Shown: piece by piece, positions 1,276-7,538 of the stretch
How the letters are laid out: the number at the start of each line of letters is the position of its first letter
How positions within the stretch are numbered: the first letter of the stretch is position 1
Assembly: GCA_945874125.1 (NCBI GenBank)
Contig: CAMCFB010000010.1
Location: 1 to 35,611 of the forward strand
Direction of reading: 5' to 3'
DNA length: 35,611 nucleotides
Origin: Verrucomicrobia subdivision 6 bacterium
GTDB taxonomy: Bacteria > Verrucomicrobiota > Verrucomicrobiia > Methylacidiphilales > Verrucolacustridaceae
The notes under the pieces: model-generated
Databases searched by the model: none
Seen by the model: the letters and a program-made list of their open reading frames with translations, nothing else
What the model was told of the DNA's origin: nothing
Position numbers and translations under genes: made by a program

Positions 1276-2073
1276 CTAGTTGGAGTAGAGCAACGCGTTG
1301 AGCAGCACCGTCAGGAAAAAGTTTACGATCAGCAGGGTGAGGGAGGCATTCACCACCGCCTCCGTCGTCGTCTTTCCCACCCCCGCCGTCCCCGGAGGAC
1401 AGTTCATTCCCTTATGGCAGGCAATCGCCGAAATAATGATCGCGAAAATAAACGACTTAATCAGGGCAATCACCACATCCTTGCTGTCGGTAAACTTAAT
1501 CGTGTTGTCCCAATAATAAGCCCCGTCCACCCCAAAGATTTTCACCGCCACAAAGTATCCACACCCGATTCCCGTGACCAACGCCAATCCGGTCAATATC
1601 GGTGCCGATATCACCAAGGCCAAAAACCTCGGCACAATCAGGTACTCGGTCGGATACACCCCCAACGCCCGCAAGGCATCCACCTGCTCCGTGATTTTCA
1701 TCGAGCTTAACTCCGCCGCCATCGCCGCTCCCACCCTCCCCGCCAAAAGCAAACAACACAACACCGGGCCCAACTCCCGACACATCGCGATCGAAACGGT
1801 CGGCCCGATCGCCGACTCCATCCCAAACCGTTTAAACTGAAACCAAACCTGCGCCGCGAACACCGCACCCGTAAAAGCCCCCGTCGTCAAAACAACCACT
1901 TGCGAACGAATCCCAATAAAATACATCTGCTCGAAAATCTGATCCCACCGCAGCCGATACTGCACCATGCTGCGCAACGTATCCCCCAAAAGAAGAAAGA
2001 CCTCCCCCGCCGTCCGACAGGAGTCCGTAAAAACGGTTCCCACTTTCCCAACCAGATGCAAAACCCTCCCCAT
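1276..2073 (-). CDS. mlaE: MlaE family ABC transporter permease
   Basis: Sequence VVVLTTGAFTGAVFAAQ...GRVGAAMAAELSSMKITEQVDALRALGVYPTEYLIVPR is characteristic of MlaE/YrbE. Confidence 0.93.
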   Translation of the reverse strand: MGRVLHLVGKVGTVFTDSCRTAGEVFLLLGDTLRSMVQYRLRWDQIFEQMYFIGIRSQVVVLTTGAFTGAVFAAQVWFQFKRFGMESAIGPTVSIAMCRELGPVLCCLLLAGRVGAAMAAELSSMKITEQVDALRALGVYPTEYLIVPRFLALVISAPILTGLALVTGIGCGYFVAVKIFGVDGAYYWDNTIKFTDSKDVVIALIKSFIFAIIISAIACHKGMNCPPGTAGVGKTTTEAVVNASLTLLIVNFFLTVLLNALLYSN

Positions 2074-6674: not shown

Positions 6675-7007
6675 ATGTATATCCAAACCACCTCCATGCT
6701 GGCTGCCCTGATGGTAACTTTTAGTTCATTCGCTTGGGCCGAGGAGACTCCTCCAACAGCCCCAAAAAAAGCCGAAATTGTCACCACGGCCGAACAAAAA
6801 GCCAAAGCCGCCGAGCTGGCTAAGTCTTACCCCCTGACCACCTGCGTTGTTTCTCACGATGAAGTGGGTGGAACAAGCGATACGGTGGACGCCCTCTACG
6901 ATGGCCGGCTGATCCGGTTTTGCTGCAAAGGTTGCGTCAAATCCTTCAACAAGAATCCCAACAAATATCTCAAAGAGCTCGATACCGCAAAAAAGCCGGC
7001 TGCATAA
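6675..7007 (+). CDS. Secreted YHS/TRASH-like putative metal-binding protein
   Basis: Signal peptide MYIQTTSMLAALMVTFSSFAWAEE; ...YPLTTCVVSHDEVGG...LYDGRLIRFCCKGCVKSFNKNPNKYLKELD is YHS-like. Confidence 0.75.
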   Translation: MYIQTTSMLAALMVTFSSFAWAEETPPTAPKKAEIVTTAEQKAKAAELAKSYPLTTCVVSHDEVGGTSDTVDALYDGRLIRFCCKGCVKSFNKNPNKYLKELDTAKKPAA

Positions 7008-7043
7008 CCCCTTCACCCTGTGTGTCATAAAATCTCCAAGGGC

Positions 7044-7071
7044 TTGACCTGCCCTGCGGATTGATTAATTT
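7044..7071 (+). promoter_or_regulatory. Putative sigma70-type promoter for the structured leader RNA
   Basis: TTGACC (7044-7049), 16-bp spacer, TAATTT (7066-7071). Confidence 0.45.
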
Positions 7072-7077
7072 ACACCC

Positions 7078-7253
7078 AGCATTCCGAGTACTTCCGTCGC
7101 AAGATGGAAGTCCGCCAACCGGGGCTGGAGAAACCCACGGTGGCTGGAAAAAGACCCAAGGTCTTTTTCCGATGTGCGAGACAGGAGGGTCCTGACTCGA
7201 ACAAAGTTCTCCGCAGGCCAACCGCCCGCACAGGAATGTGTCGGCGGTTTTTT
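7078..7253 (+). ncRNA. Candidate structured RNA/leader of unknown class (four stacked hairpins plus intrinsic terminator)
   Basis: Perfect or near-perfect stems: 7090-7098/7103-7111 (9 bp, GCAA loop); 7114-7124/7134-7144 (GCCA-a-CCGGGG...CCC-a-CGGTGGC); 7146-7156/7160-7170 (11 bp); 7177-7186/7190-7199 (9 bp with A.A mismatch); terminator 7220-7253. Confidence 0.7.
7220..7253 (+). terminator. Intrinsic terminator at the end of the structured RNA, upstream of the 7296 ORF
   Basis: AACCGCC-cg-CACA-ggaa-TGTG-tc-GGCGGTT followed by a T run (7248-7253). Confidence 0.8.
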
Positions 7254-7266
7254 GTGCCCGCATCGG

Positions 7267-7292
7267 GATGCGTCAACCAAAGGAGACGCATC
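7267..7292 (+). promoter_or_regulatory. Hairpin presenting or sequestering the SD of the 7296 ORF
   Basis: GATGCGT (7267-7273) pairs with ACGCATC (7286-7292); loop contains AGGAG (7281-7285), 10 nt before the ATG. An overlapping alternative stem is GCAT-cggg-ATGC. Confidence 0.5.
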
Positions 7293-7295
7293 AAC

Positions 7296-7538
7296 ATGAG
7301 CACCGCAACCCTCGCGGCCCCCTGGGCCTCACTCAGCATCAAAATCGATTCGGAGAATCCGGATCATCACCTCTGGAACAATCACGGCACCTGGTGGATC
7401 CACTACACCGTCCACCAGCGCGACTACACCAAACGTCGGGTCCGAGTTTCACTCGAAACCCGAAACCTGCGCGAAGCGCGACAAAGACGAAATACCCTCT
7501 TCGCTCATCTAAAGGCGGAGGGGGTCGAAACTACCTAG
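7296..7538 (+). CDS. Small (80 aa) integrase-arm/AP2-like DNA-binding protein
   Basis: Start ATG 7296 with SD AGGAG; NHGTWWIHYTVHQRDYTKRRVRVSLETRNLREARQRRNTLFAHL resembles the arm-type N-terminal domain of tyrosine recombinases, but no catalytic domain follows. Confidence 0.65.
   Translation: MSTATLAAPWASLSIKIDSENPDHHLWNNHGTWWIHYTVHQRDYTKRRVRVSLETRNLREARQRRNTLFAHLKAEGVETT

Follow-up and report, generated by a model that had tools for sequence, protein, structure and literature searches.

In this work, a divergent riboswitch aptamer of the SAM clan (SAM-I/IV type) is predicted at positions 7075-7215 of a DNA window from a Verrucomicrobia subdivision 6 bacterium, upstream of an 80-aa open reading frame (ORF). 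The window is the whole stretch that was analysed (35,611 nucleotides of contig CAMCFB010000010.1), and all its features lie on the forward (+) strand unless stated otherwise. We put the probability at about 0.82 that the leader acts as a SAM-I/IV-type riboswitch with a tandem expression platform, for which S-adenosylmethionine (SAM) is the most likely ligand and OFF the direction of control. The RF01725 match, the conservation of the pocket, the covariation of a pseudoknot, the switch complementarity and the conserved link between leader and ORF were counted for this reading. Counted against it were the score of the window, 9 bits under the RF01725 cut-off, a changed pocket edge in its genus, two kinds of leaders without switch complementarity (class B leaders of the same genus and leaders with AAG in J1/2), and targets that are not methionine or SAM genes.

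The folding energy of the leader (7074-7256) is -80.7 kcal/mol versus -59.5 ± 4.6 kcal/mol in dinucleotide shuffles (z -4.66), and none of 200 shuffles was equally stable. Its structure goes far beyond chance because compensatory changes are found across relatives. The four strong hairpins that a preliminary description had placed at about 7090-7199 were recovered there in the sequence and in the minimum free energy structure (7090-7098/7103-7111, with a GCAA loop; 7114-7124/7134-7144; 7146-7156/7160-7170; 7177-7186/7190-7199). The intrinsic terminator proposed at 7220-7253 is likewise present (AACCGCC 7220-7226/GGCGGTT 7243-7249, T-run 7248-7253, -18.4 kcal/mol). The TTGACC-N16-TAATTT promoter candidate occupies 7044-7071 (-35 at 7044-7049, 16-nt spacer, -10 at 7066-7071) and is backed by a box that relatives conserve at constant spacing. 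A consensus promoter/terminator scanner run on the window called neither element at its thresholds. Closure of the whole structure by CCTGCGG (7053-7059) and CCGCAGG (7211-7217), suggested in the same description, was ruled out: the first copy is promoter spacer between the -35 and -10 hexamers, is therefore not transcribed from the 7044-7071 promoter, and is not conserved in relatives. That description did not contain P1, the pseudoknot 7127-7132/7207-7212, the hairpin over the ribosome-binding site (RBS), the two switch helices or the upstream box.

The leader had been left in an unassigned class, as either a standalone small RNA or a terminating riboswitch-type leader; the second reading was correct, and the class is the SAM clan, SAM-I/IV type. 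SAM-I/IV riboswitches are already known (Weinberg 2010, PMC2864571), and PMC6890682 cites structures of them. An Rfam scan of the window at curated cut-offs returned no match, and at permissive thresholds RF01725 (SAM-I/IV) matched over its whole model with 31.8 bits (E=0.004). The Rfam check thus gave a divided answer, the E-value speaking for the family and the score lying under the gathering cut-off of 41.1 bits, which some relatives exceed. An RF01725-type match was found in 15 of the 21 genomes of the window's own genus, where one homologue passes the cut-off (42.7 bits, G008); among 20 distant leaders, 3 pass it as well (41.3-47.5 bits). Covariation among homologous upstream regions, the other check that had been proposed, was clearly found. 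An alignment of 32 leaders, the window included, gave a consensus of P1, P2, P3 and P5, the helices for which covariation was tested and found as in SAM-I/IV. Of its 26 pairs, 16 show double compensatory changes, and P1 hardly varies. The covariance model built from this alignment (R1) defines the aptamer span and scores the window, one of its 32 training sequences, at 82.8 bits (E=1e-15).

The predicted architecture of the aptamer follows from this fold and its covariation. The P1 3' strand is GATGT (7171-7175), and the P1 pairs are kept in nearly all of the 32 aligned leaders. P2 (7090-7111) is a hairpin of 9 bp with a GCAA loop in the window, supported by compensatory changes; it has no kink-turn or internal loop and is short and uninterrupted throughout the alignment. 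P3 (7114-7144) carries the pocket nucleotides C7116, A7117, A7118 and C7119 together with T7141 and G7142, and its loop GGAGAA (7127-7132) forms the 5' strand of a pseudoknot with TTCTCC in the 3' tail (7207-7212). P4 (7146-7170), seen in the fold of the window as a hairpin of 11 bp, also occurs in relatives, and P5 (7177-7199) is supported by fold and covariation. The pseudoknot has at least 4 Watson-Crick pairs in 58 of 61 distinct leaders, compared with 23.9 when loops were shuffled. Altered P3 loops are matched by altered 3' tails lineage by lineage, as in the compensated variants GTGAGA/TCTCAC, CGAAGA/TCTTCG, CGGGAT/ATCCCG and TGAAG/CTTCA. The leader was assigned the SAM-I/IV layout because it combines a single P2 without PK-1 with P4 and the P3 loop-tail pseudoknot PK-2, in line with a published comparison (PMC6890682).

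The SAM-I positions within 5 Å of SAM are 6-8, 11-12, 44-47, 57-59 and 87 (PMC6890682, Methods). Among 80 leaders these nucleotides are conserved as A6 (80), U7 (79), C8 (65), G11 (79), A12 (80), C44 (80), A45 (76), A46 (78), C47 (80), U57 (79), G58 (80) and A87 (80). The exception is position 8, which is U in 15 leaders, the window among them; position 59 is C or G within a covarying P3 pair. The equivalents in the window are A7081, T7082, T7083, G7086, A7087, C7116, A7117, A7118, C7119, T7141, G7142 and A7172. The main departure concerns positions 9-10, which are AG in most leaders, CC in the window's genus and AA in 6. Because U at position 8 stands beside CC at 9-10, the pocket edge is changed in this genus. 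In one further aptamer (L015, 1502-1642, genome G014), GCAG replaces GCAT at the P1/pocket position U7 and the switch pairing is broken too, so that this is either a decaying copy or an assembly error.

These departures raise the question of the ligand. A SAM-clan fold could have changed its ligand, for example to S-adenosylhomocysteine or another adenosyl- or methionine-type metabolite, and could act on the ORF by the same strand exchange. J1/2 has moved off the canonical CAAGAG, with positions 8-10 being U-C-C in the genus and C-A-G in most other leaders, and the target has no relation to methionine synthesis. However, nearly all nucleotides within 5 Å of SAM in SAM-I (PMC6890682) are conserved here, and position 10 is outside the contact list, its change being explained by the switch target that co-varies with it. 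We therefore regard a changed ligand as unlikely and SAM as the probable ligand of the riboswitch.

The strand that would operate the switch is GCATTCCGA (7079-7087), which is made up of the P1 5' strand and J1/2 and has three alternative partners, 7171-7175 within the aptamer, 7233-7239 or 7263-7271. In the window RNA, GCAUUCC (7079-7085) is complementary to GGAAUGU in the apical stem-loop of the terminator (switch target 1, GGAATGT, 7233-7239; duplex -9.6 kcal/mol). The full strand, GCAUUCCGA (7079-7087), is complementary to UCGGGAUGC in the 5' arm of the RBS hairpin (switch target 2, TCGGGATGC, 7263-7271; duplex -15.1 kcal/mol). This predicted RBS-sequestering hairpin, GATGCGTC/GACGCATC, spans 7267-7292 (stem 7267-7274/7285-7292, -13.1 kcal/mol) and holds the Shine-Dalgarno sequence AAAGGAG (7279-7285) in its loop. 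Equivalent RBS hairpins with compensated stems occur in relatives (TGATGCGGT/ACTGCATCA, TGATGCGTAA/TTACGCATCA and GTGTGATT/AATCACAT). Hairpins on the RBS side score at least 7 in 51 of 66 leaders versus 14 expected. For this count the top-scoring hairpin close to the start was taken, and in some leaders, the window being one, that is not the RBS hairpin but the terminator or a different one. Terminator-like hairpins were present in 35 of 66 homologous leaders.

In most leaders the corresponding strand GCAUCAGGA has its complement, UCCUGAUGC, in the terminator, within the 5' arm of a start-codon hairpin, or in both. A switch complement score of at least 7 was reached in 62 of 80 leaders, versus 5.4 expected from dinucleotide shuffles, and two such sites were present in 36 of the 80. 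The mean pairing of a leader with its own strand is 8.7 for the window type and 8.2 for the CAGGA type, compared with 4.9-5.1 when strands and leaders were swapped between the types. The complementarity is seen for J1/2 of both AGG and CCG; it was absent in all 6 leaders with the canonical AAG, and none was found in the class B leaders of the window's genus. Further compensated changes are found in two other leaders (GCAUCCGGAAC/GUUCUGGGUGC in L039 and CAUCGGGA/UCCCGAUG in L077). Loci located through the RNA, as described below, also have the switch, usually twice. The switch counts come from related sequences and are not independent events; on a cautious reading they represent three lineages with separate compensated changes. 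Another candidate antiterminator, in which GGCCAACCG of the terminator mimics the P3 5' strand, was seen in the window's genus and set aside, the P1/J1/2 switch being better supported across the phylum.

The aptamer lies wholly upstream of the terminator and can coexist with it, whereas neither the terminator nor the RBS hairpin can form alongside the switch helices. For this reason we infer that the ligand turns the gene off. Transcription would start near 7078, at the 5' edge of the aptamer. If no ligand is bound, GCAUUCCGA would leave P1 and pair first with GGAAUGU of the terminator, then with UCGGGAUGC of the RBS hairpin's 5' arm. This would disrupt both hairpins and allow the 80-aa protein to be made (ON). 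Once the ligand (probably SAM) is bound, P1, J1/2, P3 and the pseudoknot would lock 7079-7087 within the aptamer. The terminator and the RBS hairpin would then be unopposed, and expression would be OFF at the levels of both transcription and translation.

The small-protein family behind the leader occurs in assemblies of Verrucomicrobiota, Planctomycetota and Lentisphaerae. An R1 match precedes 61 of the 63 ORF homologues with enough upstream sequence (L033-L098); 29 of these loci contributed to R1, and 32 of the 34 outside its training also match. R1 was also searched alone, with the protein ignored, against 289 genomes of the phylum and gave matches in 35. This RNA-first search yielded 29 loci besides the window, and 21 of them have the same small protein within 500 nt. 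In five others (L122-L126), the leader stands before an unrelated protein of about 150 aa with the motif PNVPxxVRNWA, one example of which had no Pfam match. Several of these five have a switch complement, CTCTTGGTGC or CTCTTGATGC, downstream of the aptamer. A weak SAM-clan match with canonical AAGAG in J1/2 was observed at about 1500-1616 (reverse strand) of L128, before a metY-like gene for a PLP enzyme of Cys/Met metabolism. Since the loci found through the RNA mostly lead to the same ORF and in a few cases to others, including the metY-like gene, the RNA fold belongs to the SAM clan and the present subclass is mostly tied to one protein.

Several observations accompany this distribution. 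Class B aptamers (GCATCACGAG type) were found in four genomes of the same genus (L001, L002, L003 and L004, in G008, G015, G002 and G011), with the upstream box in direct orientation in 3 of the 4 and no terminator seen. They precede unrelated ORFs (MSNKNKST... and MSEK...), two of which had no Pfam matches when tested, and in L001 a perfect hairpin, CTCATGGT/ACCATGAG, lies over the start codon. Two aptamers 450 nt apart (1188-1323 and 1768-1901) occur in L080, the second preceding the small ORF, and some assemblies hold two copies of leader and small protein on different contigs (L043/L044; L054/L061). At L121 the leader is intact and the small-protein gene is diverged or frameshifted after DHQLW. 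The records of L020, L021, L048, L072 and L078 are titled Akkermansia muciniphila, Klebsiella pneumoniae or Candidatus Paceibacterota; they carry the Verrucomicrobia-type leader and gene and are probably mislabelled assemblies. Several records of the window's genus are labelled as freshwater-type 'Verrucomicrobia subdivision 6', the habitat being taken from isolate names.

The ORF at 7296-7538 encodes a DUF6538-like protein with a predicted beta-beta-beta-alpha fold, as indicated by Pfam and AlphaFold2. Its match to DUF6538 (PF20172) scores 19.7 bits, under the cut-off of 27 bits. Among 43 family members, 29 match DUF6538 at E<=0.01 and 6 match Arm-DNA-bind_3. In the AlphaFold2 model (mean pLDDT 79.5, pTM 0.62), three strands are followed by a C-terminal helix, an arrangement that we take to be the layout of integrase arm-binding domains. 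A Foldseek search of the model against the PDB returned nothing below E=0.4 and so no confident match, and the protein sequence had no match in the PDB or in NCBIfam. Family members are standalone proteins, mostly of 67-128 aa, that share the motif NPDHHLWNN.GTWW.H.T.H and have a C-terminal helix of basic character. The small protein is apparently DNA-binding, a role that we infer from the weak Pfam matches and the predicted layout, the PDB offering no confident match. Only one locus was found on viral contigs; this is therefore not a phage gene family.

A conserved box, TTATGACAC (7022-7030, reverse strand), lies just upstream of the -35 hexamer and is inverted in the window's genus relative to most relatives. 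Of 73 leaders, 64 have TATGACA/TGTCATA upstream of the aptamer, versus 0.9 expected by shuffling; the box almost always starts 47-53 nt from the aptamer start, and the spacing of the promoter to both box and aptamer is fixed in relatives. The TTATGACAC 9-mer has only two sites in its whole genome, the second inside a pckG-like ORF. The TATGACAC box was also considered as the mark of a regulon in the window's genome and eight others (searched in the latter as the box plus TTG, with leader sites set aside), and this was rejected: the other sites lie mostly within ORFs and are only modestly above control. The box looks private to the leader promoter, and autoregulation by the small protein through it is possible. 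The upstream neighbour on the same strand (6675-7007), which ends before the box and promoter, encodes a protein that looks secreted and weakly matches YHS/TRASH (metal-binding; CCKGC).

The apparently nucleic-acid-binding nature of the target and the essentially private TATGACAC box, which fits autoregulation at the DNA level, would also suit a leader whose fold is a protein site, the small protein binding its own leader or box and repressing itself. However, the nucleotides of the SAM pocket are conserved in detail and the same fold precedes unrelated genes (the metY-like gene of L128 and the 150-aa protein of L122-L126), so we consider a protein-responsive leader very improbable. Least probable of all is the standalone small RNA of the preliminary description, an RNA of about 175 nt that the promoter, dense structure and terminator would give, but which does not agree with the tight conservation of the leader with its downstream ORF in three phyla, the complementarity that reaches past the terminator to the RBS hairpin, and the leaders without any terminator.

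The textbook role of SAM riboswitches is the control of sulfur and methionine genes. The divergent subclass described here is tied, in three phyla, to one small protein that resembles an integrase arm-binding domain. For this uncharacterised protein family, a response to SAM is a functional lead. The leaders are also a clear example from nature of co-evolution between an aptamer core and its expression platform, because changes in J1/2 are accompanied by changes in the terminator loop and the RBS hairpin. We hypothesize, tentatively and at somewhat less than even odds, an as yet undescribed PVC-wide circuit in which this variant SAM-clan riboswitch adjusts the level of a tiny, dedicated DNA-binding regulator to cellular SAM. 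One aptamer strand would command the tandem platforms (terminator and RBS hairpin), J1/2, which is AAG elsewhere, would be free to co-evolve, and the regulator would relay the SAM signal to other genes.

Compared with known systems, the target shares weak profile matches and the predicted beta-beta-beta-alpha fold with DUF6538 and Arm-DNA-bind_3, the N-terminal arm-binding domains of tyrosine recombinases. It differs from them in being standalone without a recombinase domain, in its own motif and in scoring under the Pfam cut-off. A literature search returned no paper naming DUF6538 and, with Weinberg 2010 covered by its main article, none on the small protein or its association with the leader; the name SAM-I-IV-variant appeared only in Weinberg 2010 and one review. 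With SAM-I (RF00162) the present leader shares the ligand-binding core nucleotides and the P4 hairpin. SAM-I has a P2 kink-turn and a P2-loop pseudoknot and no PK-2, whereas P2 of the present leader is a simple tetraloop hairpin with neither element. An RF00162 search gave no match in the window's genome but found canonical SAM-I riboswitches in 27 of 40 genomes of the genus and order. The four SAM-I loci that were read (L131-L134) precede a threonine-synthase-like gene, identified by inspection, and not a methionine gene. With SAM-IV (RF00634) the leader has in common the P5 hairpin and PK-2 from P3 loop to 3' tail. SAM-IV has P2a/P2b with PK-1 and no P4 (PMC6890682), whereas here P2 is a single hairpin, PK-1 is lacking and P4 is present. 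The closest likeness is to SAM-I/IV (RF01725), whose published layout (PMC6890682) has P4 and PK-2 but only one P2 and no PK-1. Shared with it are the short P1, the simple P2 without internal loop or PK-1, P3, P4 and P5, the pseudoknot from P3 loop to 3' tail and the SAM-contact nucleotides. On the other hand, the present leaders mostly score under the curated value (31.8 versus 41.1 bits for the window). Their J1/2 is UCCGAG in the window or CAGGAR in the phylum, versus cAAGAG in the Rfam consensus, and they carry GGAG in the P3 loop and CUCC in the tail, whereas the consensus has aGGAG in the tail. Moreover, their expression platform would exchange the P1/J1/2 strand, and their target gene is unusual. 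What we rate as new is a variation on this known class: a divergent SAM-I/IV subclass whose predicted tandem platform works by strand exchange and co-varies with J1/2, and whose conserved target is non-metabolic.
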